Positions 1,609-30,153 of a stretch of 64,000 nt of DNA are shown here, one piece after another. The notes beneath the pieces were generated by a model. It had not been told where the DNA came from. It made no database searches and saw only the letters and a program-made list of their open reading frames with translations. Source of the stretch: Ruminococcus sp. (GTDB taxonomy: Bacteria > Bacillota_A > Clostridia > Oscillospirales > Ruminococcaceae). The stretch is taken from contig NZ_JAEEMU010000034.1 of the NCBI RefSeq assembly GCF_016283395.1, positions 1 to 64,000 on the forward strand. The letters are read 5' to 3'. The stretch's first letter is position 1; each line of letters opens with the position of its first letter. The position numbers and the translations under genes were made by a program.

Positions 1609-1676
1609 TGCAGATTAGGAAAAAAATATGTAAGTTAGGAAATTCTATTGAAAATAAAATATAAAACTGTTATTAT
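1609..1676 (+). promoter_or_regulatory. Promoter P1 with LytTR-type tandem operator
   Basis: Two direct repeats (TGCAGATTAGGAAAA at 1609 and TGTAAGTTAGGAAAT at 1629) lie 20 bases apart. A -35 box TTGAAA starts at 1648, and after 17 bases comes TATTAT (1671-1676). The same layout with identical offsets is found at 27959 (before the LytTR regulator) and at 30086. Two-helical-turn direct repeats just upstream of -35 are the known binding pattern of AgrA-like LytTR regulators. It probably drives the lipoprotein gene at 1927. Confidence 0.8.
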
Positions 1677-1864
1677 ACATATGAGATCATATAGTAATAT
1701 ATAAAATGATAAAAAGATAACTTTGAAAGAAGGTGAAAAAGAAATGTTAAATTGATCAAAATGTGGGTAATAGTTCATTAATAAGAATTAAAATCTATCT
1801 GTATGAGATAATCGAGCAAGTTTTTTTTAAACAATAATTTTAACCGATTTGAAAGGAGTTTTTT

Positions 1865-1933
1865 GTGAAAAAAGTGTTATTTAATGCTGTTTCTTCTGTT
1901 TTAGCTATTTCGCCAAGGGGAATGATATGGTGA
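1865..1933 (+). CDS. Short signal-peptide-like stub upstream of the lipoprotein
   Basis: GTG start after a good GAAAGGAG site, 22 residues (MKKVLFNAVSSVLAISPRGM, then IW), stop TGA overlapping the start of the next gene. It reads like the first part of a secretion signal that has lost its mature protein. It could be a leader for translational coupling or the remnant of a lost secreted partner; similar stubs precede membrane-associated proteins at 14592 and 30320. Confidence 0.4.
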   Translation: MKKVLFNAVSSVLAISPRGMIW

Positions 1934-3255
1934 TTCGAAATTATTGGATAGTAAAAGCTTTTATACTTTTTTTTATATGTATTGTTCCTTTATCAAGTTG
2001 CTATGATAAAAAAAACGAGCATTTACTGCCAAATTGTATAAATGGAAATTCTTTAAAGGTTGAATCAAACAATGGAAAGAAACCTTTTATATATGATGAA
2101 TCACAAGCAATTGTTCTTGATGAAAATGACTATGCCAACGCTCAAATAGTATCACAAACCGATTTTATAACGTTTTATAAACAAGTGATAGATATTAAAG
2201 AAGCGTATCCGAATTTTAACTTTATGGATATTGAACTGCCTAAAGGTTTTACTCCTGTTCATTTTGATGAGAACGGCATGTTATATGGTAATTATGTTAT
2301 TGATGATAATCAAAAGATTGCATCGTATAATTATGGAAATAACATTCTTAGTATACTTGTTGAAAATGAAGATGAAAGTGCTATTTCTATGGTGTATATA
2401 AAGGATAATTATATGATATATATAAAAGATGATAATATTAAATGGCAAGCACCAGAGTATCATTTATATGATTTGAATACAAATGAAGATTTGATATTCT
2501 ATGAATCAGCAATTAATCCTATGACCCAAAGTGCATATTGTATGATTCACTTTAATACTCCAGTTATTATTGATAATAAAATATATTATGATGATATAAT
2601 AAATATCGATGAAAAGAATAAAAAGCATAGGATTATTTATTGTTATGACATTAAAAAAAGAAAACTTGAATTAATGTATGACGATGCTGCTTTACCAAAT
2701 GAATATATGAATAAAATTGCATGGTTTAGTTTGTCAAATGATGAAACCACAGGTGTTTTCTGTAATGAAAATGGAGCTATGTTTAAGCCCAAAACATTAT
2801 TAGGTTCATATTTTTATTCTTATGATAATATTATATCTATTCATGATAATATTTCAGAAAACTCTTTTATACAATTGATAAAAGGGAAAAAAATTGATAC
2901 GGATTTTGATCCTTTAACAGGAGATCCTAAAGATGAAGCTACTACATCTCATGGTTTAAAAATCGTTCGAAATTGTGAAATTGAGCCTATATTACTTACG
3001 GGAAATAATGTTGTAGCGTATGCAACTAATATTTATACCAATGGAAGATATGTAACATGGTATGGATCTTATATCGGATCTCCTATGTTTTATGATGTTC
3101 AAAAAGATATAGTTGTCAAAATAGATTTTTTGGATGATATTAAAGATAAAAACGATATCTTTTATTGGTTTAAAGTATCTAATAACAAGCTATTTCTTAG
3201 TTATGGTACTTATTCGGATGATTCGTTAAGATATATGATTATATCTTTAAAATAA
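1927..3255 (+). CDS. Lipoprotein of unknown function (442 aa), LytTR-controlled cargo
   Basis: The N-terminus is a lipoprotein signal: positive charges, a hydrophobic core and the lipobox LSSC near residue 25, so the mature protein should be anchored outside the cell membrane. The rest is rich in Asp, Asn, Ile and Tyr with many short alternating strands (for instance MVYIKDNYMIYIKDD), which suggests a beta-propeller or other all-beta fold; no family was recognised. Base composition is far more AT-rich than the flanking genes. It sits between the two copies of a 103-base direct repeat, behind promoter P1, and is followed by a terminator at 3449. An immunity or surface-recognition function is possible but unproven. 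Confidence 0.7.
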   Translation: MVIRNYWIVKAFILFFICIVPLSSCYDKKNEHLLPNCINGNSLKVESNNGKKPFIYDESQAIVLDENDYANAQIVSQTDFITFYKQVIDIKEAYPNFNFMDIELPKGFTPVHFDENGMLYGNYVIDDNQKIASYNYGNNILSILVENEDESAISMVYIKDNYMIYIKDDNIKWQAPEYHLYDLNTNEDLIFYESAINPMTQSAYCMIHFNTPVIIDNKIYYDDIINIDEKNKKHRIIYCYDIKKRKLELMYDDAALPNEYMNKIAWFSLSNDETTGVFCNENGAMFKPKTLLGSYFYSYDNIISIHDNISENSFIQLIKGKKIDTDFDPLTGDPKDEATTSHGLKIVRNCEIEPILLTGNNVVAYATNIYTNGRYVTWYGSYIGSPMFYDVQKDIVVKIDFLDDIKDKNDIFYWFKVSNNKLFLSYGTYSDDSLRYMIISLK

Positions 3256-3448
3256 GCATGGTTAATATATTTCTATAATTAAAAATATCAAACAAAGAAT
3301 TTATAAAAAGATTTTTTGCTTATTGGTAATATTAGTGAGTATCATAATCATTAGGAATAGTCAGAATAATAATATCTAAGTTGTTAAAGATATATATCAT
3401 TTTTATATTGAAAAATTTAAGAGAAGAATTATTAAATAAGTAGTGAAA

Positions 3449-3483
3449 AGCGGCATGTAGAAGTGTAATACATGCTGCTTTTT
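3449..3483 (+). terminator. Rho-independent terminator after the lipoprotein
   Basis: AGCGGCATGTA (3449-3459) pairs with TACATGCTGCT (3469-3479) with one G-U pair, followed by a T run. The stretch 3256-3448 shows no complete gene; a frame around 3285-3380 encodes a decayed membrane-spanning peptide (FCLLVILVSIIII) without a start codon. Confidence 0.8.
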
Positions 3484-3526
3484 CATGATATTATTAAGTA
3501 ATGTAATTCGATTATATTTAATATAA

Positions 3527-3574
3527 CTGAAGAAAGCCGCTGAGGAAGAAGAACTCGGCGGCATTTCTTTTTAG
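3527..3574 (+). pseudogene. 3' remnant of an accessory gene ending in LGGISF
   Basis: After an in-frame stop at 3524 the frame reads LKKAAEEEELGGISF and stops at 3572-3574. Only the last six residues match the end of the protein at 448-1461; the residues before them differ, so this is the tail of a second, related gene. It marks the right junction of the AT-rich cassette. Confidence 0.7.
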
Positions 3575-3659
3575 GAGGGTAACTGTGAAATTTATAAAAC
3601 TCAAACTATTTTCCCCTATAATGGTAAAGGGAGAAGCACCATACGAAAATCCGTGGGAC
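3557..3659 (+). repeat. Direct repeat copy B flanking the lipoprotein cassette
   Basis: Second copy of the 103-base repeat described at 1444-1546; this copy contains the functional GTG start of the 151-residue gene. The distance between copies is 2113 bases. Confidence 0.9.
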
Positions 3660-4040
3660 AGCGGAGATGATTACCGTTTCCTTATAGAGCGAGAAAAGAA
3701 GAAATGCAGGAAAGAGATATATGTAAGTTCCTGTAATGCGCTTACTCCTGTTTTTCTTCCACTATGCTTTGAAAGCCGCATTTATTCCGCAGTTCCTGAT
3801 ATTGAAGAAAATGACGGCAAACTTATGCTCTGCCTTAATTGTGAATGTTATCGTAAACTTTCGGAAGGGGAGATCGATGAACTCTGCGGATGGTGGGAGA
3901 ATGTAGTTGTCGAAGCAAACGAGAGACTGCATAAAAAGCAGGTAAAAACCAAGGAACTCGGCAGGATAATCATTTATTTGTGGTTTATGAAAGGCTGGAC
4001 AATCGATCCCGTGTTTCCTGTAAATAAAGGAGGAAGATAA
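3585..4040 (+). CDS. ICE accessory protein of unknown function (151 aa)
   Basis: GTG start after AGGAGGGTAACT. No family was recognised with certainty. The protein contains paired cysteines (CLNCEC near residue 85), a Trp-rich segment (CGWWENVVVEANERL) and a hydrophobic C-terminal stretch (IIIYLWFMKGW), and lacks a signal peptide. It opens a tightly packed run of short genes (next start one base after its stop) typical of the accessory block of Clostridia conjugative elements. Its 5' end is duplicated upstream at 1472-1564. Confidence 0.6.
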   Translation: MKFIKLKLFSPIMVKGEAPYENPWDSGDDYRFLIEREKKKCRKEIYVSSCNALTPVFLPLCFESRIYSAVPDIEENDGKLMLCLNCECYRKLSEGEIDELCGWWENVVVEANERLHKKQVKTKELGRIIIYLWFMKGWTIDPVFPVNKGGR

Positions 4041-4041
4041 T

Positions 4042-4311
4042 ATGAATATTCCAAGCAAAAATGAAGTCGAAAGAATACGCAGGCAGTATCCTGCAGGTAC
4101 AAGAATATGCTGCGATCATATGCCAGATGATCCTCGACCTGTTCCTTCTGGAACTATGGGAACTGTTATTGGAGTTGATGATATATGCAGCATTATGATG
4201 AAATGGGATAACGGGCAAGGGCTTTCCCTCGTTCCCGGCGTTGACAGCTTTCATACTGTTTCACAGGAAGAAAACATATCCGAAGTACCTGACATGGGGA
4301 TGCAGCTATGA
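4042..4311 (+). CDS. DUF4314 domain protein
   Basis: An 89-residue protein with the family core YPAGTRI, then SGTMGTVIGVDD, then MKWDNGQGLSLVPGVDSF, which matches the small SH3-like barrel family DUF4314 common in conjugative elements of Firmicutes. The function is not established; such folds often bind nucleic acid or protein partners. It has an AGGAGG site and overlaps the next start by four bases, so translation is coupled. Confidence 0.75.
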   Translation: MNIPSKNEVERIRRQYPAGTRICCDHMPDDPRPVPSGTMGTVIGVDDICSIMMKWDNGQGLSLVPGVDSFHTVSQEENISEVPDMGMQL

Positions 4312-4658
4312 AAGTAAACGCCGCAGAAGAAAGCTTCGAGCTTATGGATATGCTTGGACAACGTGTGCTGTTCACAAATATGAGAGTTGACCGTGATACG
4401 ATTCCTCAAGACTTGTATGTATATGATGTCAGGCACGATGATGACTGTAAAGGAGAGATATGCGAAATTAAGCCGTCTGTAATGGTCAACCACTGGGGTA
4501 CGATAATCTGTAAAGAGCCTATAGAAATGGACGAGGTCTGGCACAGCAAGTTTGTTGATAAAGATGATTATAGTTATCTCGGTGATAGCGTAAAGCTTGA
4601 TGAATATATAAATACGGACTGTTATGAAGAAGAGTCCGAGGAAATGGAGATGAGATAA
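4308..4658 (+). CDS. LPD28-type polyvalent-protein-associated domain protein
   Basis: 116 residues. The blocks VLFTNMRVDRDTIPQDLYVY and DVRHDDDCKGEICEIKPSVM followed by VNHWGTIICKEPIE are those I associate with the LPD28 family, domains often found within large polyvalent proteins of phages and conjugative elements and here encoded alone. The function is unknown; a role in early establishment in a new host is usually proposed. It ends in a strongly acidic tail and overlaps its neighbour by one base. Confidence 0.65.
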   Translation: MKVNAAEESFELMDMLGQRVLFTNMRVDRDTIPQDLYVYDVRHDDDCKGEICEIKPSVMVNHWGTIICKEPIEMDEVWHSKFVDKDDYSYLGDSVKLDEYINTDCYEEESEEMEMR

Positions 4659-4903
4659 TGGCAGAAAGAAAAAGACCAATGTGTCCCATAATAGGAGCTG
4701 ACGGCAATATATTCAATTTGCTCGGAATAGCCTCAAGGACACTGAAAAACAACGGAATGGCAGAGGAAGCTGCGGAGATGTATGATCGCGTAACTTCTTC
4801 GGGAAGCTATAACGAAGCCCTCTGTATCATCACAGAGTACATTGAACCCTGCAGAGAAGAAGATATGCAGGAAGAAAGCGATTGCTTATCCCAGCAGTTT
4901 TGA
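4658..4903 (+). CDS. Small ICE accessory protein (81 aa)
   Basis: Short soluble protein with a conserved-looking N-terminus (CPIIGADGNIFNLLGIASRT) and a helical middle (AAEMYDRVTSSGSYNEAL), ending in an acidic tail. Genes with this opening occur beside LPD28 and DUF4314 genes in related elements, but no function is known. Translationally coupled to the upstream gene. Confidence 0.6.
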   Translation: MAERKRPMCPIIGADGNIFNLLGIASRTLKNNGMAEEAAEMYDRVTSSGSYNEALCIITEYIEPCREEDMQEESDCLSQQF

Positions 4904-5022
4904 CTGTTGTTAATATATATGTTTCAAAAACAGCGACGGCTCGGCGCATAGCCAATCTCGGAGCGATAAAGGAGGAATGAAATATGAATACGTCCTGATA
5001 CTCTTTGAGGGAAGGAGGTCGT

Positions 5023-5220
5023 ATGCAGACACGCAAAAGATACGAAAAAGCAAGCGTTGTGCTTTGCGGCGATATACCGTCAATGCTGAAAAGAGCAAAG
5101 ACAGTCTTATCATGTAAGCAGTACCGTGAGCTTTGTATCGCCGTCAATGAGGCGGCAGACTATACTACTAAGAAAGGAATGATAATCGCCTGTTTAAAGG
5201 CAAAGAAAAATAATTTGTAA
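5023..5220 (+). CDS. Small basic protein of unknown function (65 aa)
   Basis: ATG at 5023 chosen because it follows GGAAGGAGG at a proper distance; a TTG at 5005 in frame is less likely. The product is basic (MQTRKRYEKAS start, KKNNL end) and mostly helical, with no recognised domain. It ends at the terminator at 5219, closing this sub-operon. Confidence 0.5.
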   Translation: MQTRKRYEKASVVLCGDIPSMLKRAKTVLSCKQYRELCIAVNEAADYTTKKGMIIACLKAKKNNL

Positions 5221-5266
5221 GCCGCTTGTCGGGAGCAGAAATATTCCGTACAGGCGGCTTTTTCTG
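5219..5266 (+). terminator. Terminator between accessory genes
   Basis: AAGCCGCTTGT (5219-5229) pairs with ACAGGCGGCTT (5250-5260) with one G-U pair, and a T-rich run follows. The 20-base loop can form its own small stem. Confidence 0.7.
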
Positions 5267-5300
5267 TTTCCAACGTATTAAAGCGGCGGAAAGGAGTTGT

Positions 5301-6134: not shown

Positions 6135-6135
6135 T

Positions 6136-7361: not shown

Positions 7362-7370
7362 GAGGTGTCA

Positions 7371-8076: not shown

Positions 8077-8207
8077 GCAGTAATTATCCGTCTTTGTCCC
8101 ACAGGTCAAAAACAAACGGTGCAATTTGGTGGTTAGGTCGATTTTTCGGCAGAATTATAGACATCCCCGAATATTTGTGGTATGGTGATAAAAAACACAA
8201 AGGGGGT

Positions 8208-8966
8208 ATGGTTATGAAAGAAATAACCGCCATTTTAGCGTTCCTAATGCTGCTTACAGGCTGTGGACAAAGCAAGGATAAGAGAGAAAGACCGCCTGAG
8301 GAAACAGAACCTACAACAGTATCAGCAGAAGAAAAAATGATAAGCACAACTGCTGGTACAACAACTGTTATTATAACAGTAACTTCTTTCGTACAGACAA
8401 CAACTGCGATGACACAGGAAACCACGATACAAACGACAGTGCTTGTCAGCATCGCAGAAGCGGCTGTGTGGGACGAAGAGGTAACGAGTCACGATAATAC
8501 CACCCAAGCCACAGAACCGCCGCATACGACAACGTCAGATGCGATAGCGGCAGTAACGATACCAGTCACGACCGCACAGAAGACCATGCCTTTGATAGAC
8601 GTAGCAGAGCCAGTTTCTGAACCAAAGATTATTCTTTCAAATGACGGAACTGACTACGGCAAGGCTAAAGCTGTATACGAATATATGCGGCAGAACGGAA
8701 GCGGCACCTGTGTTAATCACGCTTGTATGACCTATGAGCTGTGCTGTGATAACGGACTGCAATGCCGTCTTGTATGGACGGACGTAGGTGTGTACGGTCA
8801 CGTTGCAAATATCGTGAATGTGGACGGTATATGGTATGTTCTCGATACCGAGGGTGGTTATTTTCTCGACTACAATTCTTGCTTTACCGAGGTCGTCGAT
8901 TTTGACGGCACTCACATTTCAGACAGCAGTATCATCAGCGATTTGAGCTACGATGAACTGCATTAA
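8208..8966 (+). CDS. Lipoprotein with Thr-rich stalk and transglutaminase-like domain
   Basis: Start ATG 8208 after AGGGGG, giving 252 residues; a later ATG at 8214 is possible. The signal ends in a lipobox (LLTGC, about residue 18-22). A long Thr/Glu-rich stalk with weak repeats follows, then a C-terminal domain with a Cys-His-Asp arrangement like transglutaminase-like peptidases (GTCVNHACMTYEL, then YGHVANIVNVDG, then WYVLDTEGG). The position directly before a wall adhesin and a sortase suggests a cell-surface protein crosslinker or protease that helps mating contacts (inferred). Confidence 0.7.
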   Translation: MVMKEITAILAFLMLLTGCGQSKDKRERPPEETEPTTVSAEEKMISTTAGTTTVIITVTSFVQTTTAMTQETTIQTTVLVSIAEAAVWDEEVTSHDNTTQATEPPHTTTSDAIAAVTIPVTTAQKTMPLIDVAEPVSEPKIILSNDGTDYGKAKAVYEYMRQNGSGTCVNHACMTYELCCDNGLQCRLVWTDVGVYGHVANIVNVDGIWYVLDTEGGYFLDYNSCFTEVVDFDGTHISDSSIISDLSYDELH

Positions 8967-8985
8967 TATACATAAGGAGTAAAAT

Positions 8986-11900
8986 ATGATCAAATTCAAA
9001 AATAGAATAAAGAAGATCGGCGCAGGGATAATAGCAAGTCTCTGCGCTGTTTCATTGTTCAGCACTTCTGTCGGCGGAACGCTTTCCGTTAGTGCTGCAA
9101 TGACAACTGAAAATATAGCCTTTCCCACAGCTGATGAAGTCATAGCAGAAGCTGCCACTCTGCTCGGAGCTCCCTACGGCTGGGGATACAAAGGATATAC
9201 AGGAGTTTACTATCAGGGCAGTTATACTCCTCTTGATCTCGACTATGTACGAAATCAGGGCGTTGACTGTTCGGGACTTCTATACTATACGCTCACGCAC
9301 CTCGGATATTCCACAAGCGGATTTTCGTGGAATAACCCTGTTCCCGTTGATACTCCCCATTGGCTGAGTGTGAATGATAACTGCACTATCACATACAAAG
9401 GTGTTACATCAAAGATAGACGTAGAGAAGTCGAATATTCCATGTACTAAGCATCCGTATTGGGAATGTTCAGACGGCTCGACTATTTCCGCAGGCTCTAT
9501 GGTAATAGCTCAGAATCCCAAAGGCGAGGATCATTCTTGGATATATATGGGGGAATTCGACAGCAGGAATGATGTCATATCCTACCTTAAAAGTATCGGC
9601 GTAAATGAAAGTTACATAAGCAGCAGAACAGTCGGTGACGGAAATGGTGACGGCGGCACTCACTGGCGTATCGAGTCGAACGGCTCAGAGGGCTGTGTTA
9701 TCAATAACAGGACTGACGGTAAAAGCTCAACTGCGCTGAATATGTCGGCATTTCGCGTTACTCAGAATGACGTGAAGTTCAACATTACAAAGGTTCTCAG
9801 CACTGATAACAGCGTTAAGATAAGCGGCATAAGCAGCATTGACGGCTCTAAGGCGATATACGGCGTATATACCGATAAGAACTGCTCTCAGAAAGTCGGA
9901 GAGATAACCATAGGAGCTGACGGAACAGGTTCGATAAAGCTGCCCAACAAGCATTATTATGTCAAGGAAATTTCCGCGCCGAAAGGTTATGACCTCTCTC
10001 CCGATGTTGTACCGCTGAAAGCTAACGGCAACGTAAATGTTGAGGAAGATATCACAAGCGGAAAGATAACTGTCAATAAGACTGCCGAGGACGGAGTTGT
10101 TGCAGACCGCGAGTTTCAGCTCACATGGACTGACGGCGGAAAGAAACATTCAAAAACTGCTGTTACCGATGAAAAAGGTATTGCAGAATTTGACGGACTT
10201 CACGTTTATGATTTCAGTACCAAAGGTGTGATAAACTACACAGTTTCCGAGGTCAATACCGACTCGAAATATGTAGCCCAAAAGCCGCAAGACGTAACCC
10301 TTACAAGAGGAAACGCTGACCTTACTGTCGGTGTGAAGTTTGAGAACCGTCTCAAAAAGTTCAAGGCAGAGGTAAAAAAGAACGACAGTGAGAACATCAC
10401 TGCACAGGGCGATGCAACGCTGTCTGGAGCTGTATATGGGCTTTACCGTGACGGCGAAAGAATTGCCACATATACAACAGACGAAAACGGTCACTTCATT
10501 ACTGACGAATTTATCTGCGGCAACTATACACTTCAGGAGCTTAAACCGTCTCAGGGCTATCAGCTCAATGATACCATTTACAAGGTTGGCGCAGAGCCTG
10601 AGATGTATGTTATCGAGACAAATACAATAGCTCTTGATGTTACTGAGGATATTATCAAAGGTAGAGTATCTATTCTAAAGCATAGTGATGATGAAGATGA
10701 TACAATTAATAATCTTGAGAGCAATGCTGAGTTTCAGGTCTATCTCAAGTCAGCTGGCAGTTATGAAAGTGCAAGTGAAACAGAGCGTGATTATCTGATA
10801 ACTGATAAGAACGGCATCGCTAAGACTAAGGATTTACCCTATGGCACATATACTGTACATCAGACAAAAACAGTTAATGATGCTGAATTTTTTGCTGATT
10901 TTGATGTGAATATTTTTGAAAGCGAAAAAACTTATGAGTATATCCTAAATAACAAGCCATTTAAGTCGTATATACACATAACCAAAGTCGATGCTGAAAC
11001 AGGGAATGTTATTCCTTATGAAGGGGCAGGTTTCCGCATATATGACGACAACGGTAATCCTGTAAATCTCGGTGTTGAAGTTTTCTACACCAATAACGAT
11101 GGGTATCTAATAACTCCTGAAGCCATTAATTACGGCAAATATACGCTTGTTGAGGTACAGGCACCTTACGGATATGTTCTTGACAGTACACCTGTTCCTT
11201 TTATGGTTTCAGAGTCAAATGTAAATGAAGAAAACGCTGTAAGGATTATCAAAGTAACAAAAGCTGATAAAGCTCAGAAAGGAAAAATATCGGTTTCCAA
11301 GCGCGGAGATGTTTTCAAGAGTGTAATTGCAGTTGGCGATAAGTATACTCCCGTTTTTGAGGAAAGAGGTCTTAGCGGAGCTGAATTTGAGGTGAAAGCC
11401 GCAGAGGACATCTATACCCCAGACGGAACACTCAGAGCAAGCAACGGTGACGTAGTTGCCGACCTTATCACTAACGAAAATGGTTATACCGTTACAGGAG
11501 ATTTGTATCTCGGCAAATATATTGTAAGCGAGAAAAAAGCTCCTGTGGGTTATGTGCTTAACAGTGAAGAAAAGCTCATTGAACTTACATATGCAGGACA
11601 GGAAGTCGCAGTCGCTGATGCGGTAAATACCATTTTCATTAATGATTATCAAAGCGTTGACATACATCTCAAAAAAATCATGGAACATGATGAGAAGTTC
11701 GGTATCAGCGATAAGAACGAGTACAAGAACGTCACATTCGGACTGTTCGCTGCTGAAGATATTACTGCCGCAGACGGTACCGTTATCCCTGAAAATGGCT
11801 TGATTTCAATCGTAACTCTCGGTGAAGACATGAATGCACATTTTGAGGAAAAGTTACCTTTTGCTAAGTATTACGTTGAAGAAATCTCAACCGATGAAAG

Positions 11901-12786
11901 CTATATGCTCAACGGCGAGAAATACCTTGTAAACTTCAAGTATATGGGACAGGCGCAGACTACAGTTGACATTGATTGCGGCACTTTTGTGAATGACCTC
12001 AAGCGCGGCAGTGTATCAGGCATAAAAGTCAATGAAAAGAACGAGCCTCTCGAAAAGGCTGTATTCGGACTTTTCTCAACCGATACTAATGAGTTTATTG
12101 CTGAGAATGCATTAATTATAACGGAATCTGATAAGGATGGAAAGTTCAGTTTCACTGATATTCCTTACGGAAAATATATCGTGAGTGAAATAGCTGCTCC
12201 AAAAGGATATTATCTTTCTGATAAGCTGTATCCTGTGGATATCAGCGAGGATGGTGATGTTGTGGAGATAACCGCTGAAAACCGTCCTGTTTCCGTTTCG
12301 ATAAGAAAAACGGATATTTACGGTAAGGAACTCACAGGAGCAAAAATGCGGCTAATTAATAAAAATGGTGATATCATAGATGAATGGACCTCAGGCAATG
12401 ATAGCCATATAATCAATAATATCACTGCAGACGAATATACACTTAAAGAAATTGCTGCTCCTGACGGATATGTTATCGCTACAGATATAAGATTTACTAT
12501 TGATGAAAATGGCATTGTTACTGTTAACGGAGTTAAGACGAATGCTTACAACGCAGATGGAGTACCTTGTATAACTATGGTCGATAATGCTATTGACAAG
12601 CCTGTCACACCTCCATCTACAGGTGATACAGGAAGAAGTCCGCTTGGACTTGCGATGATAATTGCAGGTCTTTGCGGAGTTTTCTACGTGTCCCATAAGT
12701 ACAGAAAAAAAGAAAAGGAAACGGATTCCCTCGGTAACGAATATGCTGACCTTTGTCCTTATTACATTGAAAGCACGAAAAAATGA
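8986..12786 (+). CDS. Giant cell-wall adhesin: NlpC/P60 domain plus about nine SpaA/Cna-B repeats
   Basis: 1266 residues. A signal peptide (AGIIASLCAVSLFSTSV) is followed by an NlpC/P60 domain at about 45-210 with catalytic Cys in GVDCSGLLYY and His in DHSWIYMGEF. From about 255 to 1205 come nine SpaA/prealbumin-like units, each ending in an E-x-x-A-P-x-G-Y-type strand (KEISAPKGYDLS, SEKKAPVGYVLN, SEIAAPKGYYLS, KEIAAPDGYVIA). The C-terminus has a sorting-like PPSTGDTG, a hydrophobic segment and a basic tail (YRKKEKE). It is a predicted wall-attached stalk that may hold or remodel peptidoglycan of a mating partner. The sortase gene overlaps its last bases, so attachment is probably by that dedicated enzyme. 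Confidence 0.88.
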   Translation: MIKFKNRIKKIGAGIIASLCAVSLFSTSVGGTLSVSAAMTTENIAFPTADEVIAEAATLLGAPYGWGYKGYTGVYYQGSYTPLDLDYVRNQGVDCSGLLYYTLTHLGYSTSGFSWNNPVPVDTPHWLSVNDNCTITYKGVTSKIDVEKSNIPCTKHPYWECSDGSTISAGSMVIAQNPKGEDHSWIYMGEFDSRNDVISYLKSIGVNESYISSRTVGDGNGDGGTHWRIESNGSEGCVINNRTDGKSSTALNMSAFRVTQNDVKFNITKVLSTDNSVKISGISSIDGSKAIYGVYTDKNCSQKVGEITIGADGTGSIKLPNKHYYVKEISAPKGYDLSPDVVPLKANGNVNVEEDITSGKITVNKTAEDGVVADREFQLTWTDGGKKHSKTAVTDEKGIAEFDGLHVYDFSTKGVINYTVSEVNTDSKYVAQKPQDVTLTRGNADLTVGVKFENRLKKFKAEVKKNDSENITAQGDATLSGAVYGLYRDGERIATYTTDENGHFITDEFICGNYTLQELKPSQGYQLNDTIYKVGAEPEMYVIETNTIALDVTEDIIKGRVSILKHSDDEDDTINNLESNAEFQVYLKSAGSYESASETERDYLITDKNGIAKTKDLPYGTYTVHQTKTVNDAEFFADFDVNIFESEKTYEYILNNKPFKSYIHITKVDAETGNVIPYEGAGFRIYDDNGNPVNLGVEVFYTNNDGYLITPEAINYGKYTLVEVQAPYGYVLDSTPVPFMVSESNVNEENAVRIIKVTKADKAQKGKISVSKRGDVFKSVIAVGDKYTPVFEERGLSGAEFEVKAAEDIYTPDGTLRASNGDVVADLITNENGYTVTGDLYLGKYIVSEKKAPVGYVLNSEEKLIELTYAGQEVAVADAVNTIFINDYQSVDIHLKKIMEHDEKFGISDKNEYKNVTFGLFAAEDITAADGTVIPENGLISIVTLGEDMNAHFEEKLPFAKYYVEEISTDESYMLNGEKYLVNFKYMGQAQTTVDIDCGTFVNDLKRGSVSGIKVNEKNEPLEKAVFGLFSTDTNEFIAENALIITESDKDGKFSFTDIPYGKYIVSEIAAPKGYYLSDKLYPVDISEDGDVVEITAENRPVSVSIRKTDIYGKELTGAKMRLINKNGDIIDEWTSGNDSHIINNITADEYTLKEIAAPDGYVIATDIRFTIDENGIVTVNGVKTNAYNADGVPCITMVDNAIDKPVTPPSTGDTGRSPLGLAMIIAGLCGVFYVSHKYRKKEKETDSLGNEYADLCPYYIESTKK

Positions 12787-13625
12787 ATAGGAAGAACATA
12801 TTTCGGATAATTATGGTCGTTTCAATCGCCATTATCATAGGAGGTTTCTATTTATATTTCAAGGATGATATTTCACAAAAAAATATTGAAAAAGATCTTC
12901 TCAAGTTCAGACCGATTATAGTTTCAAATGGAATTCTTGATGATATAACAGATGACTTTATGGAAGCAACTGTAGCAGAAACAGCAGTGGTAAATGAGGG
13001 TAATACAGTTAATGCTGAAACAACGAATGTTTCGGTTATAAATACTATTCCTGATGAAGTGCGAAAGAGCCTTGTAGAATCGGCACAGTCATTAAACGAA
13101 GCCTATCCCGATGCTATCGGTTGGCTGTACATACCGAATACAAACATATCCTATCCTGTTACTCAGGGCAGGGATAACGAATACTATCTTTCTCATGCAT
13201 TTGACTGCAGAAGTCTTAAATCGGGAGCGATATTTCTCGACTGCCGCTGTGAAAACAGGTTCATGAATCCTGTGAATCTCCTTTACGGACACAGCATGAA
13301 AAACGGTACAATGTTTGCAGGAGTGCTGAACTTCGCTGACAGTAGTTACTTTGATAGTCACAGATATGGTTGGCTTGCTACACCCGAAGCCGTATACCGT
13401 ATAGACTTTTTCTCTTGCGCCAAGACCGACTGTAACGATGAGCTGTATGACGGCAATACTCCGATATCAGAGTGGATACCGCATATATGCGAAAAATCGG
13501 CAGTTCTGAGGGGGATAGAGTACACTGACAATGACAGGTTCATATCACTATCTACGTGCAGTTACGAATATGAAAATGCAAGGACTATCCTTACGGGAAA
13601 GCTTGTAGAAACGAATGGAGGCTGA
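12783..13625 (+). CDS. Class B sortase dedicated to the adjacent adhesin
   Basis: 280 residues: a membrane anchor (IFRIIMVVSIAIIIGGFYLY), a variable linker and a sortase domain from about residue 105 (AIGWLYIPNTNISYPV). Catalytic residues are visible: His in LLYGHSMKNG (about 170), Cys in SLSTCSYEY (about 259) and Arg in NARTIL. The pattern fits class B sortases. The ATG overlaps the adhesin stop (ATGA), arguing for a two-gene unit in which the sortase joins the adhesin, through its PPSTG-like motif, to the wall or to another subunit. The next gene starts at its very end. Confidence 0.88.
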   Translation: MNRKNIFRIIMVVSIAIIIGGFYLYFKDDISQKNIEKDLLKFRPIIVSNGILDDITDDFMEATVAETAVVNEGNTVNAETTNVSVINTIPDEVRKSLVESAQSLNEAYPDAIGWLYIPNTNISYPVTQGRDNEYYLSHAFDCRSLKSGAIFLDCRCENRFMNPVNLLYGHSMKNGTMFAGVLNFADSSYFDSHRYGWLATPEAVYRIDFFSCAKTDCNDELYDGNTPISEWIPHICEKSAVLRGIEYTDNDRFISLSTCSYEYENARTILTGKLVETNGG

Positions 13626-19302: not shown

Positions 19303-19315
19303 GGAGGTAAATTAA

Positions 19316-20171: not shown

Positions 20172-21984
20172 GAAAAAAGAACTTACCTCAGAGCAGCATG
20201 AAATCATATCTACTAAAGATTTCTTCGACAGAACGCTCCCAAGCACAGTCAAGTTCTATACAGACCACTACATCTGCGGCAATTATTACAAAAGCGTATG
20301 GGCTATAACCGAGTATCCGCCCAACACTGAGGAAACGGCTCTGCTTTCTCACCTTGCAGACAGAAGTGGAGTTACGCTCCGCATATATAACAGGATCGTT
20401 ACTTCTATGGAGCAGAAGAAGATAATGCAGCAGGCAATGCGGAAGAACAAGATGATGTCTACAACCAACGATATCAGTGAAACTGTCAAGGCAGAGGAAA
20501 ACATGACAGATATCGTAAATCTGCTTGCGGAACTTAAACGTGACAGGGAAACACTTCTGCATACGGCTGTATTTATTGAACTGAAAGCCGATACTGAGGA
20601 AAAGCTGAGAGAGCTTCAGGCTGATATCCAAATGGAACTAACACGTTCAAAGATATCGGTAGATAAACTTCTTCTCAGGCAGAAAGAAGGATTTCTTTCT
20701 GTATTGCCAACGGGAACGAATGTATTTGTTACACAGTATGAGCGTGTATTGCCGTCAAGTTCGGCAGGGAATTTGTATCCGCTGAATTACAGTGGTAAGA
20801 CCGACTCCAACGGCTTCTACATCGGACGTGATAAGTTCGGTGCGAATATTCTTGTTGACTTTGACAAGCGTACCGATGACAAGACCAACAGTAATATCTT
20901 GATACTCGGCAACAGCGGACAGGGAAAGAGCTATCTTATGAAGCTGCTCCTCTGTAATATGCGTGAATCGAGCAAGAGTGTTATCTGCCTTGATCCCGAA
21001 AGCGAATATGAGGACTTATGCAATAATCTCGGCGGCACATATATAGACATGATGTCTGGAGAATATATGATAAATCCCTTGGAACCCAAGTCCTTCGGAG
21101 AAGCCGACAGGAGCGAGGATTCTCCCGACACCTTCCGAAGAGTAACGAGACTTAGTCAGCATATATCATACCTCAAGGACTTTTTCAGAGCTTACAAGGA
21201 TTTCACAGACAGCGATATAGATACTTTGGAGATAATGCTGATAAAACTGTATAATCGTTTCGGTATTGACGATAATACAGATTATTCTAAGCTGAAAGTC
21301 ACTGATTATCCAACCATGTCAGACCTGTACGAGCTTACCGATAAAGAATACAAGGCTTATGACAGAGAGAAAAGGAACCTCTATACCGAGGAAACGCTTC
21401 AGAATATCTGCCTTGGTATTTACAGTATGTGCAAGGGAGCTGAAGCGCAGTATTTCTGCGGTCATACAAATATCAAGGACGGAGACTTACTTTGCTTTGG
21501 TGTTAAAGGACTTATGGACACTAACAAGCGTCTCAAAGATACACTTCTTTTCAATATCCTTTCATATATGAGCAGCCAGCTTCTTGGCAAAGGGAACACT
21601 GTTGCCGCTATAGATGAACTTTATTTGTTCCTGACAAATATGACCGCTATTGAATATATCCGAAATGGAATGAAGCGCGTTCGCAAAAAGGAGTCCTCAT
21701 TCATACTTGCTTCTCAGAATATCGAGGATTTCCTCATACCTGAGATAAGGGAGTTCACTAAGCCGCTGTTCAGTATACCTACGCATACTTTTTTCTTTAA
21801 TGTGGGTAACTGCTCTCCAACTGAATTTATGGATACGGTACAGCTCCTCAAGCCTGAATATGACCTTATAGCTCATCCTGAACGAGGAACTTGTTTGTAT
21901 CGCTGCGGCAATGAGCGTTATCTGCTGCAAGTCCATGCTCCTGCGTATAAGGAGGCTCTCTTCGGAAAGGCAGGAGGAAGATGA
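20158..21984 (+). CDS. VirB4-type conjugation ATPase
   Basis: ATG 20158 is favoured over ATG 20152 because the AAAGGAG site is only two bases from the latter. The protein of 608 residues has Walker A GNSGQGKS (about 251-258) and Walker B VAAIDELYLFL (about 481-491), with the conserved TNSNILILGNSG lead-in. It energises channel assembly and substrate transfer in the type IV system. Its AGGAGG-rich 3' end provides the ribosome site for the next gene. Confidence 0.92.
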   Translation: MKLFKKKELTSEQHEIISTKDFFDRTLPSTVKFYTDHYICGNYYKSVWAITEYPPNTEETALLSHLADRSGVTLRIYNRIVTSMEQKKIMQQAMRKNKMMSTTNDISETVKAEENMTDIVNLLAELKRDRETLLHTAVFIELKADTEEKLRELQADIQMELTRSKISVDKLLLRQKEGFLSVLPTGTNVFVTQYERVLPSSSAGNLYPLNYSGKTDSNGFYIGRDKFGANILVDFDKRTDDKTNSNILILGNSGQGKSYLMKLLLCNMRESSKSVICLDPESEYEDLCNNLGGTYIDMMSGEYMINPLEPKSFGEADRSEDSPDTFRRVTRLSQHISYLKDFFRAYKDFTDSDIDTLEIMLIKLYNRFGIDDNTDYSKLKVTDYPTMSDLYELTDKEYKAYDREKRNLYTEETLQNICLGIYSMCKGAEAQYFCGHTNIKDGDLLCFGVKGLMDTNKRLKDTLLFNILSYMSSQLLGKGNTVAAIDELYLFLTNMTAIEYIRNGMKRVRKKESSFILASQNIEDFLIPEIREFTKPLFSIPTHTFFFNVGNCSPTEFMDTVQLLKPEYDLIAHPERGTCLYRCGNERYLLQVHAPAYKEALFGKAGGR

Positions 21985-23279
21985 CAAAGGACTTGATTTA
22001 TAATGAAAATAATGATATAATAACTAATATCGGTAAAAGAAAGCGAGGTGTACCCATGAAATATATACTAATGCATAAAAATACAGAGGTTGCTGATATT
22101 GATATCGACGATGTTCTCGGAAGAATAACCGCTGTCAATAATGTTATACACAGGGAACACCTTCCTGTAGGTATAGTCCATCCTTTGCACCATAATGAAG
22201 TTGTTGATCGAGGAGCACTGAACAAATGGTGGTGTGGTCGGTCTATACCCGCAAGCAGAATGGGGATTGCCGATGCATTTGAAACACTTGGCATATATGA
22301 TCCGAGTGAATTGCTGACCAAATGCTTTGGCCTCAGTCTTTCTGATCACTACTGGATAAAGCCGTCAGGCAGCAGTATGAAGTGGGAGGACGTTAATTTC
22401 TTCGATAATGAATTCTCTGATGATATCGGAGATGTTTTGTTCGGCACAAGTACCAAATCATCAGGTTTTGACTTTTATTCTCCCGATAATACCTCCGACG
22501 GTAATCTGAAGAAGCGCTGGAAGATAATAGACGGAAAGCGTTGCTTGTTGAAAGCAGGCTCAATGCCTTACAGACAGCAGCCGTATAACGAGGTCATTGC
22601 TTCAATGGTAATGGACAGACTTGGTATAGATCATGTTCCGTACAGCGTTGTCAATATCGGTAATGAGCCGTTCAGTTTATGTGAGGACTTTATCACAAAG
22701 GATACCGAACTTGTAAGTGCATACAGGATATTACAGATACGTGGGAAAGAAAACCATGAAAATGATTATCTGCACTATATTAATACCTGTAAGGAGATTG
22801 GTGTTGATATATCCGTTGCTGTCGATGATATGATAGTTGTGGACTATATTATCGCCAATGAGGACAGACATTTCAATAATTTCGGACTTCTTAGGAACGC
22901 GGAAACTCTTGAATGGATTGGTGCTGCTCCGATATTTGACAGCGGAACCTCACTTTGGTTTAATCGTTCTGAAGATCAGATAAAGAATACAGAGATTAAA
23001 TGCAAGCCTTTCAAAAAGCATCACAGCGAGCAGATAAAGCTTGTTTCCGATTTCAGCAGATATGATTTTTCAAAGCTTGACGGCATAGAAAATGACATCA
23101 GAGAGGTCCTCAAAGGTCAGAAGCCAGAAAGAGTTGAGCTGATATCCGAAGCAGTAAGGAACAGGATAGAAACCTTACAGTCGTTGGCTGTTGAGCAGAA
23201 TGTTAAGGAAGAAAACAGCTTTAATGACGAATACACCGAGAAAATTACTGCTGAAGAATACAACATTAATATGGATTGA
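21981..23279 (+). CDS. HipA-fold kinase-like protein inside the transfer operon
   Basis: 432 residues; ATG 21981 overlaps the VirB4 stop and has AGGAGG, while ATG 22056 is an alternative. The C-terminal half has the HipA/CtkA kinase signature: a lysine and glutamate pair (GKRCLLKAGS, YNEVIASMV), the catalytic loop DYIIANEDRHFNNFGLL (about 286-302) and the metal-binding FDSG (about 319-322). All key residues look intact. No HipB antitoxin gene is adjacent, which is unlike the persistence toxin pair. A regulatory kinase acting on the recipient or on transfer proteins is an inference. Confidence 0.72.
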   Translation: MTKDLIYNENNDIITNIGKRKRGVPMKYILMHKNTEVADIDIDDVLGRITAVNNVIHREHLPVGIVHPLHHNEVVDRGALNKWWCGRSIPASRMGIADAFETLGIYDPSELLTKCFGLSLSDHYWIKPSGSSMKWEDVNFFDNEFSDDIGDVLFGTSTKSSGFDFYSPDNTSDGNLKKRWKIIDGKRCLLKAGSMPYRQQPYNEVIASMVMDRLGIDHVPYSVVNIGNEPFSLCEDFITKDTELVSAYRILQIRGKENHENDYLHYINTCKEIGVDISVAVDDMIVVDYIIANEDRHFNNFGLLRNAETLEWIGAAPIFDSGTSLWFNRSEDQIKNTEIKCKPFKKHHSEQIKLVSDFSRYDFSKLDGIENDIREVLKGQKPERVELISEAVRNRIETLQSLAVEQNVKEENSFNDEYTEKITAEEYNINMD

Positions 23280-23568: not shown

Positions 23569-23572
23569 AATC

Positions 23573-23598: not shown

Positions 23599-23620
23599 AT
23601 TGGAGGTGTTACAATAAGAA

Positions 23621-24595: not shown

Positions 24596-24599
24596 TATT

Positions 24600-26524: not shown

Positions 26525-26527
26525 GCG

Positions 26528-27925
26528 TTGCCGAGGTTAGTTGTGGTGAGCCGTTATCTCAAAAGCGGCAGCAGTAAAAATCTTTCTAACTACGTTAAGT
26601 ACATCGCTACCCGTGAGGGAGCAGCAACAGTAAAAGAGAATAACGGAACAACTCCTGCTACAAAAAAACAGCAGGAGCTTATTTCTTCTTTACTGAAAGA
26701 TTTTTCTTACAGCAAAAACAGTTTCTTTTATGAGGAATTCAAAAACAGTCCTACGCAGAAGAATGCGTCAAAATTTATTGAAGAAACTATCGAACATAAT
26801 GCTGACATAGTTGCGAACAAGAAAAACTATATGGGGTATCTTGCAAATCGTCCTGGAGCAGTAAAATTTGGATCGCACGGATTATTCTCACAGACCGACG
26901 AACCGATATCGCTTCAGAATGTCGCAAAGGAAGTTTCGGAACACAAAGGAAATGTGTGGACACACGTTGTATCTCTCCGCAGGGACGATGCACAGAAAAT
27001 GGGTTACGATAATCTTAATGCGTGGAGAGAACTCATAAAGCGGCAGATACCGAATATAGCGAAATATTCCAAAATAGATATGAAAAATCTGAAATGGTAT
27101 GCTGCATTTCACGATAAAGAAACAAATCCCCACGTTCATATAGTCGTGTACTCGACAAATGAGCGTGAGGGATTTCTTACGAAGCAGGGCTGCGATAAGA
27201 TACGTAGCGGTTTTATGAATGATATTTATGCCGATGAGCTGAAACATCTCTATCAGCAGCAGACAGATACACGTGATCTTCTGAAAGCTGAGAGCGCAAA
27301 GCTTATGAAACAGCTTTCAAGTGATATTGCTTATAATAGTTGTATTGATACAGTGATAGTTAAACTAATGCGGAAGCTCCACGGACAGCTTAAGAACGCG
27401 AAAGGAAAAAAGGTCTATGGCTACTTACCCAAAGATACAAAGCGAACAGTTGACGAGATATTTTTCAGGCTTTCGCAGAATGAGTCCATACAGAAAATGT
27501 ACAGGCTGTTGTGTGATATGGAGCAGAGCAAGCATGATTTTTACTCGTCTGCAAAGGTGAATTTCCCAGCGATGGTAGATAACGAGCACTTCAAGTCAGT
27601 GAAAAATATGATAATACGTTCTGCGGCAGAGATAGTTCCAATTGAAACTGTTGCTGAGGGAAAAGTCTTTGCAGAAGATAAGCACGATGATATAGCTGTA
27701 GTAAGTGATAACAGCGAAGTCGTTATCCAGACAGCCGCTTCGCCTGTTGCCAGTAGTGATAACAATGTATTTGCCTGTGTAGCGTTCGGACTTATGGTTA
27801 ATATCAGTCGCATTATATATGATGATTATGACCGAGAGCAGCGAAAGCTCCGTTCAAAGGTCGATAAGAAGCTTAGAAAAGCTATTGATAGAAAGAAGCA
27901 GGAAATGGGAATAAAGATGGAGTGA
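26528..27925 (+). CDS. MobP-family relaxase (MobP3-like)
   Basis: 465 residues from a TTG start after AAAAGGAG. The metal-binding motif is clear: HDKETNPHVHIVVYS at about 195-209 (HxH). An N-terminal segment with SNYVKYIATREGA, typical of MobP3/MobL relaxases, supplies the probable Tyr nucleophile. The middle is helical and a hydrophobic stretch lies near the C-terminus (NVFACVAFGLMVNISRIIYD). It nicks oriT and leads the strand through the T4SS. Confidence 0.85.
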   Translation: MPRLVVVSRYLKSGSSKNLSNYVKYIATREGAATVKENNGTTPATKKQQELISSLLKDFSYSKNSFFYEEFKNSPTQKNASKFIEETIEHNADIVANKKNYMGYLANRPGAVKFGSHGLFSQTDEPISLQNVAKEVSEHKGNVWTHVVSLRRDDAQKMGYDNLNAWRELIKRQIPNIAKYSKIDMKNLKWYAAFHDKETNPHVHIVVYSTNEREGFLTKQGCDKIRSGFMNDIYADELKHLYQQQTDTRDLLKAESAKLMKQLSSDIAYNSCIDTVIVKLMRKLHGQLKNAKGKKVYGYLPKDTKRTVDEIFFRLSQNESIQKMYRLLCDMEQSKHDFYSSAKVNFPAMVDNEHFKSVKNMIIRSAAEIVPIETVAEGKVFAEDKHDDIAVVSDNSEVVIQTAASPVASSDNNVFACVAFGLMVNISRIIYDDYDREQRKLRSKVDKKLRKAIDRKKQEMGIKME

Positions 27926-27958
27926 AAAGTAGGAAGACATTTCTTATTTAATTCAAGG

Positions 27959-28026
27959 TGCAAATCAGGAAAAAAAGTTGCAATATAGGAAAAGGTATTG
28001 AATAAATTTTTATAATATGTTATCAT
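27959..28026 (+). promoter_or_regulatory. Promoter P2 with LytTR-type tandem operator (autoregulation)
   Basis: Repeats TGCAAATCAGGAAAA (27959) and TGCAATATAGGAAAA (27979) are 20 bases apart; TTGAAT at 27998 and TATCAT at 28021 have a 17-base spacer. All offsets equal those of P1 and P3. It drives the LytTR regulator and kinase genes, so the system probably controls itself. Confidence 0.85.
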
Positions 28027-28057
28027 AATTCTGAATAATGAAAAAGGTGGTGAAGAT

Positions 28058-28771
28058 TTGCTAAATATTGCAATAGTTGATGATAATCTTGAATATTTAA
28101 AGATAATACATGAACATATAGACAATATAATGAATGAGCTTAAATGTGATCAATATATTTTAAAGACATTTACAGATGGAATACAGCTTATTGAAAGTGG
28201 CATAAAATATGATTTACTTCTTCTTGACATTGATATGCCAACGATTAATGGTTTTGAGCTTGCTGAAAAAATCAACAATAATACTTCAATACAGGATGCA
28301 ACAACTATAATTTATATTTCAACATATGATAATCTTGTATATGAATCATTCAAATATTCTCCTTTAAGATTTATAAGAAAAAATAGAATTGATGAGGAAT
28401 TGGAAGAAGCAATACAGGCATTTTTGTGTAAAAGGGAACATAATGGATATCCTCTAATGTTTTCTACTGATTTAGGAAAAAGAAGCATACATGTCAATGA
28501 CATTATATATATTGAAGTTCAGAGTCATAAATTATACGTTCACGAAAAGACAAAGTTGACGATTGCAAATGGAAATCTTAAAGATGTTGAGGAGCAATTA
28601 CGCACTTATGGTTTTATCAAGACTCATCAAAGTTTCCTTGTTAACTTCAGATATATCAATTTTATAAAACATAGCGAGATAATTCTTGATAATGGAATAT
28701 CAATTCCGTTGTCAAGAGGCAGATATGAGCAAGTAAAAAAGGAATATATGGTATTAACGAGGGAGCTTTAA
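28058..28771 (+). CDS. LytTR-family response regulator (AgrA-like)
   Basis: 237 residues from a TTG start. Residues 1-120 are a receiver domain with acidic pair DD (8-9), the phosphoacceptor Asp57 in LLLLDIDMP and Lys in FIRKNRI. Residues about 135-235 are a LytTR DNA-binding domain (DIIYIEVQSHKLYVH, FIKTHQSFLVNFRYI). LytTR proteins bind pairs of short direct repeats two helical turns apart, the pattern found in P1, P2 and P3. The kinase gene follows after two bases. No AgrB/AgrD-like signal gene is visible next to it. Confidence 0.9.
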   Translation: MLNIAIVDDNLEYLKIIHEHIDNIMNELKCDQYILKTFTDGIQLIESGIKYDLLLLDIDMPTINGFELAEKINNNTSIQDATTIIYISTYDNLVYESFKYSPLRFIRKNRIDEELEEAIQAFLCKREHNGYPLMFSTDLGKRSIHVNDIIYIEVQSHKLYVHEKTKLTIANGNLKDVEEQLRTYGFIKTHQSFLVNFRYINFIKHSEIILDNGISIPLSRGRYEQVKKEYMVLTREL

Positions 28772-28773
28772 TT

Positions 28774-30081
28774 ATGATATGGCAAATATGTGAATATACA
28801 GCGACTATTATAGAATATGTTATTTATGCGGATTTTATGGTTCGCTTTTTAGATGTAAAAAAGGATAAAAATAAAATCATAAGTTTTTTCCTAATATTTT
28901 TATCAGATACGTTGCTAACATCTGTATTTAACTACTTTATGAATTTTGAAGGTATACTGTGTGTTATAAGAATAGCTTTGAATATCAGTATAGCTTTTTT
29001 TCTACTAAAGGGGACATTGTTTGAAAAAGCTTTTTCTGCTATAATTCTTGATATTACGGCACTATTTGTAAGTTTTATTTCACTTACACTTCTTGGAATG
29101 TTGTCAGGAAATTCACTTGAAGAAATGATTGAAAGCAGAGGAATGATTCGTCTGCTCAACTTGTTTATTACTAAAGTGTTTTTGTTTGCGGTAACAAGAG
29201 CTATTTTGCGTATCAGAGGAAAAAATAACCTCTCATTTGAATTTACAGAAGTATTGGGCGTATCATTTATTTTTGCTATTACGTTAGTTATTGGTATTGG
29301 CATATTCAGAGCTAACCTTAGCGCAGGTGTTGATACAGATTCACCAATATCATTGCTTATCGGCTTTGGACTTATTGCGATAAATATATTTACATATATT
29401 CTTATGAAGCGTATCAGTGACAAGAATCGCGAAAGAGAAAACCTATTGCTTGATAAAGCACAGAATGAGGCTTATTTTTCTCAGGTTACAGAGTATGAGA
29501 AGCAGTTAGATGATATGCGAAAGATACGCCATGATATAAAAAATCATCTTCAATGTTTAGCAGCGTTAATATCTCAGAATAACAATGAGCAAGCAGAAGA
29601 TTATATTAATGATATAATTGAGAATAAGCTTGATTTCGGGCATTATTATATAGACACAGGAAATAAAGTTATTGATTCTGTTATAAATATGAAATTATTG
29701 CAATGCAAAAATGATAACATAACAACTGTTGTACACATTAATAAGGTCGATACTAATATTGAAGATGCAGATATGTGCGCATTATTGAGTAATATCCTTG
29801 ATAACGCAATTGAAGCCTGTTCAAAAGAGACTAAAACCAAAGAGATCCATATTGATATTATGCCAAGAAAGGGATATGCAAATTTGGTTGTTAAGAATGC
29901 AATTTCAGATTCTGTTCTTGAAAGGAATCCAGAATTAAAAACTACAAAAGAAAATGTATTTATTCATGGTATAGGTATGAGGTCAGTTTCTGATATTGTT
30001 AAGAGATATGATGGTATGCTTGATTTTTATGAAAACAACAATTTCTTTATTGCTGATATTTGGCTTCCACTAAAAGGATAA
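28774..30081 (+). CDS. GHKL sensor histidine kinase (AgrC-like)
   Basis: 435 residues. The first 215 residues contain about six hydrophobic helices (FFLIFLSDTLLTSVF, LGVSFIFAITLVIGIGI, LLIGFGLIAINIFTYIL). A coiled segment and the phosphoacceptor motif RKIRHDIKNH (His about 253) follow, then the ATP-binding N box LLSNILDNAIEAC and G box GIGMRSV. This is the build of AgrC/ComD/HPK10 kinases that detect exported peptides. The signal is unknown. It shares promoter P2 with the regulator; transcription probably ends at the hairpin at 30141. Confidence 0.9.
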   Translation: MIWQICEYTATIIEYVIYADFMVRFLDVKKDKNKIISFFLIFLSDTLLTSVFNYFMNFEGILCVIRIALNISIAFFLLKGTLFEKAFSAIILDITALFVSFISLTLLGMLSGNSLEEMIESRGMIRLLNLFITKVFLFAVTRAILRIRGKNNLSFEFTEVLGVSFIFAITLVIGIGIFRANLSAGVDTDSPISLLIGFGLIAINIFTYILMKRISDKNRERENLLLDKAQNEAYFSQVTEYEKQLDDMRKIRHDIKNHLQCLAALISQNNNEQAEDYINDIIENKLDFGHYYIDTGNKVIDSVINMKLLQCKNDNITTVVHINKVDTNIEDADMCALLSNILDNAIEACSKETKTKEIHIDIMPRKGYANLVVKNAISDSVLERNPELKTTKENVFIHGIGMRSVSDIVKRYDGMLDFYENNNFFIADIWLPLKG

Positions 30082-30085
30082 AAAA

Positions 30086-30153
30086 TGCAAATTAGGAAAA
30101 ATAGTTGCAAGTTAGGAAAAGCTATTGAATTTAAATTTTTAAATGGCTATTAT
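30086..30153 (+). promoter_or_regulatory. Promoter P3 with LytTR-type tandem operator
   Basis: Repeats TGCAAATTAGGAAAA (30086) and TGCAAGTTAGGAAAA (30106), TTGAAT at 30125, a 17-base spacer and TATTAT at 30148. Spacing is identical to P1 and P2. The -10 box lies inside the left arm of the long hairpin at 30141-30206. Confidence 0.85.

Follow-up and report, generated by a model that had tools for sequence, protein, structure and literature searches.

The closest described systems to the locus reported here, a LytTR regulator and kinase with three promoters on a conjugative element of gut-type Clostridia, are the agr systems and several other LytTR regulatory systems. The locus lies in a 64-kb stretch of Ruminococcus sp. 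DNA (assembly GCF_016283395.1, contig NZ_JAEEMU010000034.1, positions 1 to 64,000), the whole of which was analysed and is called the window hereafter; comparisons with published systems draw on parts of the cited papers. With agr of the Staphylococcus aureus type (agrBDCA) it shares a LytTR regulator, a GHKL-type AgrC-like kinase and direct repeats upstream of the system's promoters (PMC4227749), and AgrB and AgrD are present in relatives of the window's element. It differs in having agrB reduced to a stub and no agrD that we could find in the window, in its carriage on a conjugative element and in promoter spacers of 17 instead of 18 and 20 bases (PMC4227749). Agr genes on a mobile element are also described for the Clostridium difficile phage phiCDHM1 (agr3), which has agrD, agrB and agrC without a regulator, whereas the window presents the reverse, a regulator and kinase without signal genes; a mobile agr locus near an integrase has been suspected in strains NAP07 and NAP08 as well (PMC3901668).

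Published LytTR operators consist of 9-base repeats, usually separated by 12 bases but in some cases by 11 or 13, and in many of them the repeats lie 10 bases ahead of the -35 box (PMC6193735), and since the promoters of the window have the same layout, their design is already known. The self-activating systems of the HdrRM and BrsRM type likewise have direct repeats of 9 bases, separated by 11-13 bases and lying a few bases ahead of the -35 box, and the SMU_1070c units GCAACTTAG-11 bp-GCAACTTGA resemble GCAAATTAG-11 bp-GCAAGTTAG of the window, but these systems pair the regulator with an inhibitory membrane protein and the window pairs it with a histidine kinase (PMC6193735). VirR/VirS of Clostridium perfringens has in common with the locus a LytTR regulator and paired repeats at several promoters that lie scattered, some of the targets being plasmid-borne (PMC2838878), and RgaR/RgaS of C. 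difficile has receiver genes separate from agrBD (PMC10602386). In both, as the cited parts describe them, the regulator is chromosomal, whereas in the window regulator and targets share one conjugative element and a remnant of the signal genes is still in place.

Three operator-promoters of one geometry

We read the locus as an element-borne AgrA/AgrC regulon without signal genes of its own, which would receive the peptide of others or run at a basal level, and give this reading a probability of about 0.72. The original prediction described three sites with two repeat units 20 bases apart, a -35 box 19 bases after the start of the second unit and a 17-base spacer to the -10 box, and all three are present exactly so (geometry 20/19/17, Table 1). 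Their -35 boxes read TTGAAA or TTGAAT and their -10 boxes TATTAT or TATCAT. With two direct repeats at a period within 20-22 bases, a few bases upstream of the -35 box, they have the form of LytTR operator-promoters. Compared pairwise, the sites are 87-93% identical in unit 1 and 73-87% in unit 2; the 60-base flanks on each side reach only 25-42%, so that the similarity is restricted to operator and promoter. Conserved units between unlike flanks look like operator constraint rather than the recent copying of a longer piece.

A weight matrix built from the six units gives the three pairs scores of 45.9, 41.1 and 39.8 and the runner-up 22.8 (spacings 15 to 34), the latter having one unit in common with the third site. 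This matrix is circular, being derived from the same sites, and therefore an outside operator was used as query, taken from G011, the genome with the best relative of the regulator. It matches exactly the three sites in the window, with 2, 4 and 5 mismatches of 30, the next-best matches being 30066 with 8 mismatches, a position overlapping the third site, and 46850 with 9. Sixty Markov-1 sequences, each 64 kb long, contain no pairs as good: the best match to the outside operator per sequence has 8 to 11 mismatches. The non-circular self-BLAST of the window aligns 1609-1652 with 30086-30129 (84%, E 3e-4).

The genes behind promoter 2 had been taken for an AgrA-like LytTR regulator and an AgrC-like kinase, and their domains bear this out (Response_reg with LytTR; HATPase_c_5 with SPOB_a), so that two parts of an agr system, the LytTR response regulator and the membrane kinase with a GHKL ATPase domain, are in place. 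The phospho-acceptor Asp, the kinase His and the ATP-binding motifs are retained in an alignment read by eye. Searches with the regulator, the DNA pattern and the MobL relaxase covered 297 genomes of one family. Relatives of the regulator occur in 15 of them at E<=1e-30, the best being that of G011 (49% identity), whose kinase is 52% identical to that of the window along its length, membrane part included. Full-length regulators 93-95% identical are found in three other protein clusters (P0001-P0003), and relatives on plasmids are at most about 31% identical. Viral sources gave neither an exact match to the operator pattern nor a confirmed relative of the regulator, AgrB, the kinase or MobL.

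Because one operator copy precedes the regulator and kinase genes, self-control is a natural reading; published clostridial agr systems, in the part of the source drawn on, are not all autoregulatory (PMC10602386). In the mechanism that we propose, regulator and kinase would form a cargo module in a slot between the MobL relaxase and a serine recombinase, and the kinase-phosphorylated regulator would bind the paired TGCAANTTAGGAAA units and, at the -35 box that follows directly, aid RNA polymerase. It would activate its own operon from promoter 2, the former agrBD promoter (promoter 3), which would now read over an agrB stub into exported open reading frames (ORFs), and at promoter 1 a lipoprotein cassette inserted 26 kb away, which would have brought the third operator with it. 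The kinase would answer peptide from neighbouring cells with an intact module, as a receiver only, or run on basal activity, if it is driven at all. Binding and activation, that of the own operon included, are most likely by analogy with the family; the source of the signal, too, is inferred.

Table 1. Features of the regulon and its surroundings in the window (aa, amino acids; HMM, hidden Markov model)
Feature	Coordinates	Strand	Evidence or details
Operator-promoter 1	1609..1676	+	units 1609-1623, 1629-1643; -35 at 1648; -10 at 1671
Operator-promoter 2, upstream of regulator-kinase genes	27959..28026	+	units 27959-27973, 27979-27993; -35 at 27998; -10 at 28021
Operator-promoter 3, at position of G011 agrBD promoter	30086..30153	+	units 30086-30100, 30106-30120; -35 at 30125; -10 at 30148
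AgrA-like response regulator, 237 aa	28058..28771	+	Response_reg PF00072 E 2.2e-10; LytTR PF04397 E 1.4e-17
AgrC-like sensor kinase, 435 aa, six hydrophobic segments	28774..30081	+	HATPase_c_5 PF14501 E 1.2e-21; SPOB_a
agrB remnant, 38 codons + stop	30173..30289	+	AgrB alignment, shuffles, custom HMM; Pfam AgrB alone E 0.05
Exported ORF, 135 aa, looks truncated (by eye)	30320..30727	+	no Pfam family
Lipoprotein-like exported ORF, 209 aa	30843..31472	+	no Pfam or NCBIfam family
Small ORF, partial dockerin-like stretch	31552..31701	+	E 0.0005, 20.7 bits, below Pfam cut-off 22.9
Direct repeat, left copy, 124 bases	1432..1555	+	91% identity
22-codon ORF, GTG start, reads as signal-peptide start, apparently cut short	1865..1933	+	by eye
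Lipoprotein-like exported protein, 442 aa, predicted beta-propeller	1927..3255	+	no Pfam or NCBIfam family
Direct repeat, right copy, 124 bases	3545..3668	+	91% identity
MobL relaxase, ends 34 bases ahead of promoter 2	26528..27925	+	PF18555 E 1.6e-28
Serine recombinase of element	34221..35765	+	domain match, G011 colinearity

The agrB remnant and the exported-protein loci

The 38 residues encoded directly behind promoter 3 align to the start of AgrB, with 50% identity to the AgrB of G011. Against P0167 this stub scores 99, the best of 500 shuffles against the same 53 proteins being 57, and an HMM built from AgrB relatives detects it at E 2.6e-7. No clear ribosome-binding site precedes it by eye, and the remainder of agrB was not found in the window. 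Likewise, an HMM from three AgrD relatives matched none of the six-frame ORFs of the window (E<=1e-3), and the sole regular-expression match to an AgrD-like peptide, at 33359, lies in a reading that contains stops and is not credible. With a 38-codon stub in place of an intact AgrB peptidase and no AgrD propeptide within the window, the system is a descendant of agr rather than a complete member, one whose receiving half may still be working.

In G011 regulator and kinase are followed by the promoter, AgrB (Pfam, E 1.1e-34) and AgrD (TIGR04223, E 5.4e-11), and then, by eye, by a small exported protein, a lipoprotein and an ABC transporter. The original prediction had remarked that no AgrD gene was visible, which stands for the window and now has an explanation in the stub as a remnant of the signal genes, since the corresponding promoter of G011 precedes intact agrB-agrD. 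Promoter 3 is most likely the old promoter of the signal genes and not primarily one for exported proteins. As only a stub is left of AgrB and the window yielded no agrD, the element itself would no longer make the peptide and has the look of a receiver that lacks a transmitter. We considered and rejected a special leader RNA or terminator downstream of promoter 3: shuffled sequences fold as well as the 176-base leader (z 0.08), which also has no Rfam match at the gathering threshold. The sole Rfam match in the window at that threshold is a pemK RNA motif at 33442-33522 (+; RF02913, 51.7 bits, E 2.1e-6).

That promoters 1 and 3 precede exported-protein loci was right in kind, with the amendments that the role of promoter 3 is most likely the older one given above and that the first ORF behind promoter 1 and the 135-aa ORF behind promoter 3 look truncated by eye. 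The promoter-1 cassette is most likely an insertion, because the homologues of its flanking genes (448-1461 and 3585-4040) are adjacent in G011, with matches 211 bases apart, and in the window about 2 kb between them are bounded by the 124-base direct repeat. For its lipoprotein a beta-propeller fold is predicted at moderate confidence (mean predicted local distance difference test score, pLDDT, 72.8). Among the 50 fold matches listed most are propeller-like, with template-modelling (TM) scores below 0.5, and for that reason no function can be assigned from the fold. Ten relatives are present in the protein database, none of them named; the family genomes gave none (0 of 297 at E<=1e-8), in a search without a positive control. 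As a candidate relative of the lipoprotein of G011 it was rejected, the two having no significant likeness.

The conjugative element and its MobL slot

Positions 448-41848 of the window are colinear with contig C14 of G011, from 61055 down to 19321, with identities of 77% for VirD4, 76-79% for VirB4-like proteins, 68% for TrbL, 65% for MobL and 50% and 59% for two serine recombinases. MobL, T4SS-DNA_transf, a TraG P-loop protein, TrbL and serine recombinases make up the gene set of an integrative and conjugative element. Because this stretch matches a single contig, all three promoters lie in one conjugative element, in agreement with the element-wide regulon first proposed; the left end of the element may lie outside the window. 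The backbone common to G011 includes, at 8094-13625 (+), a Transglutaminase-like gene, a gene whose large product has nine SpaA-type stretches, and a sortase gene. A HipA_C-like gene that follows the VirB4-like gene, ahead of the next backbone gene (21981-23279, +), and an AAA ATPase gene followed by a subtilase gene between the two serine recombinases (35911-39204, +), have no match in the colinear list.

Relatives of MobL at E<=1e-60 occupy 53 places in 34 of the genomes. We read 22 MobL loci, namely 17 of the 20 best-scoring places, three others, and L037 and L051 (also among those 20); G001:C110 was left out as too short. At least 5 kb lies behind MobL in 17 of the 22, and in eight of these 17 it is followed by a same-strand LytTR regulator and kinase, AgrB being present in seven of the eight. 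L037 and L051 had been located by way of their regulators and also served in model training; without them the counts become 6 of 15 and 5 of 6, respectively. Identities to the window across the slot loci are 46-67% for MobL, 25-47% for the regulator and 21-52% for the kinase, so that the signalling module diverges, or is swapped, faster than MobL. The locus without AgrB, L073, belongs to a second related element of G011 (contig C25), the genome that also has the intact agr module; there MobL is followed by regulator, kinase and a long ORF that resembles a C39/ABC peptide exporter by eye, and the locus was accordingly rejected as a second case of lost agrBD. Large exported proteins stand behind agrBD in the related elements L074 (4933-10428) and L051 (612-4588); by eye, both have dockerin-bearing proteins and L074 a GH5-type glycosidase-like protein.

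Searched with up to 3 mismatches and no protein information, the DNA pattern of the operators occurs in 2 of the 297 genomes, once each, with 0 hits of the reversed-pattern control in all, and both sites lie within 3 kb of a LytTR regulator and kinase. The site of G011 stands between the kinase and agrB of the best regulator relative with the geometry 20/19/17. That of G163 is on a 3.9-kb contig with a distant AgrC-like kinase (21% identity) and LytTR regulator (30%); it has the geometry 20/20/18 by eye and is directed away from the kinase, towards the contig end. A search of the whole genome and of related elements had been proposed as a check; carried out on the family genomes rather than the source genome, it places the pattern only beside such regulators and kinases.

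Upstream of agrB or agrD in 12 relatives the best tandem pair was sought at periods 17 to 25 (L038 excluded from the table), and the period is 20 or 21 in all 12. The pair matches in at least 13 of 15 bases in seven relatives and in 10 to 12, near chance, in the other five; the operator words differ among most of the loci, and a -35/-10 pair comes after. Seven of 1800 random stretches from the same loci reach 13, all at period 20 or 21, and may be the operators themselves, since the sampled loci contain them. Behind the kinase of slot loci L072, L073 and L081 a clear tandem pair was not found. Searches of whole genomes for their own operator (G011, G132, G235, G214 and G207; <=3 mismatches) gave exactly one copy each, although drafts may hide copies, and the element of the window has three, one of them on the inserted lipoprotein cassette.

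These relatives allow a wider proposal, which we hold only tentatively: in this element family the MobL slot may house interchangeable peptide-signalling modules with private operator words, and the window's element may be a receiver-only eavesdropper that lost its signal genes, put its regulator under the operator and recruited a lipoprotein cassette. While neither the proteins nor the layout of the promoters is of an unfamiliar kind, the locus stands apart as a variant through its slot, its private operator words and its lack of signal genes combined with three operators. Among the titles listed from the open-licence literature, subscription papers being mostly outside its scope, none concerns an agr module carried by such a conjugative element, which is no proof of absence.

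Competing readings and meaning of a possible receiver without signal genes

Several points weigh against a working regulon without its own signal genes. Pfam AgrB finds the 38-residue stub below its cut-off (E 0.05) and does not match a longer 48-aa reading of the same ORF. The searches for agrBD and operators cover the 64-kb window, and further copies of either may exist elsewhere in the host genome. Relatives seldom have a tandem pair ahead of the regulator gene: in one set 2 of 18 loci do, one of the two pairs belonging to a divergent agrB promoter as well, and in a second set the count is 0 of 6. Promoter 2 is therefore without a direct parallel. Decay is suggested by the truncated ORFs that follow promoters 1 and 3. 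Finally, S. aureus AgrA promoters have spacers of 18 and 20 bases, and shortening to 17 raised AgrA-independent transcription (PMC4227749); since 17 bases is the optimal length, the promoters of the window may fire without the regulator, and such spacers together with truncated exported ORFs speak for decay or bypass.

These last points, with the agrB stub and the regulator-free transcription that 17-base spacers may permit (PMC4227749), would fit a decaying agr locus, in which regulator and kinase are relics left after the loss of agrBD and the three promoters either work independently of them or are silent. We consider this unlikely: both reading frames are open with their key motifs kept, the operators are conserved while their flanks are not, one operator stands ahead of the regulator and another on the inserted cassette, and full-length regulators of 93-95% identity exist in P0001-P0003. 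Retained motifs, near-identical regulators and conserved operators speak for a module that would still be in use.

It is improbable that the system is complete, which would require a same-type agrBD at another place in the host genome or on a companion element and would make the stub no more than a displaced copy. The window is only part of the host genome, and C. difficile has agrB1D1 apart from an orphan kinase and regulator (PMC10602386); against this, the signal genes adjoin regulator and kinase in those of the relatives read that have AgrB behind the kinase (L001, L037, L040, L044, L046, L051, L056, L072, L074, L075, L081 and L083), and neither a remainder of AgrB nor AgrD was found in the window. 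Slightly more doubtful still is a kinase that senses a cue other than an agr peptide, the regulon being retained for that cue. RgaS, an AgrC-like kinase of C. difficile, gives no response to AgrD1 in the cited part of its description (PMC10602386), but the kinase of the window is 52% identical, membrane part included, to one that stands beside agrBD in G011. Chance or low-complexity likeness of the three repeat pairs was rejected as next to impossible, given that none of the 60 Markov-1 sequences did better than 8 mismatches against the outside operator, the self-BLAST value, the dissimilar flanks and a pattern confined to two genomes with an empty reversed control.

For the element-borne regulon without signal genes, which we prefer, the consequences concern signalling between mobile elements. 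A mobile element with its own quorum switch can couple the expression of exported cargo to its frequency among neighbours. Short operator words and an easily found slot would make it possible to match regulators, kinases, operators and peptide types to one another by sequence in many elements. If the reading is true, an eavesdropping element would read the signal of its neighbours without the cost of making one, and a derivative that keeps receiver and promoters but lacks the signal genes would be a natural test case for signal cheating and eavesdropping between mobile elements.

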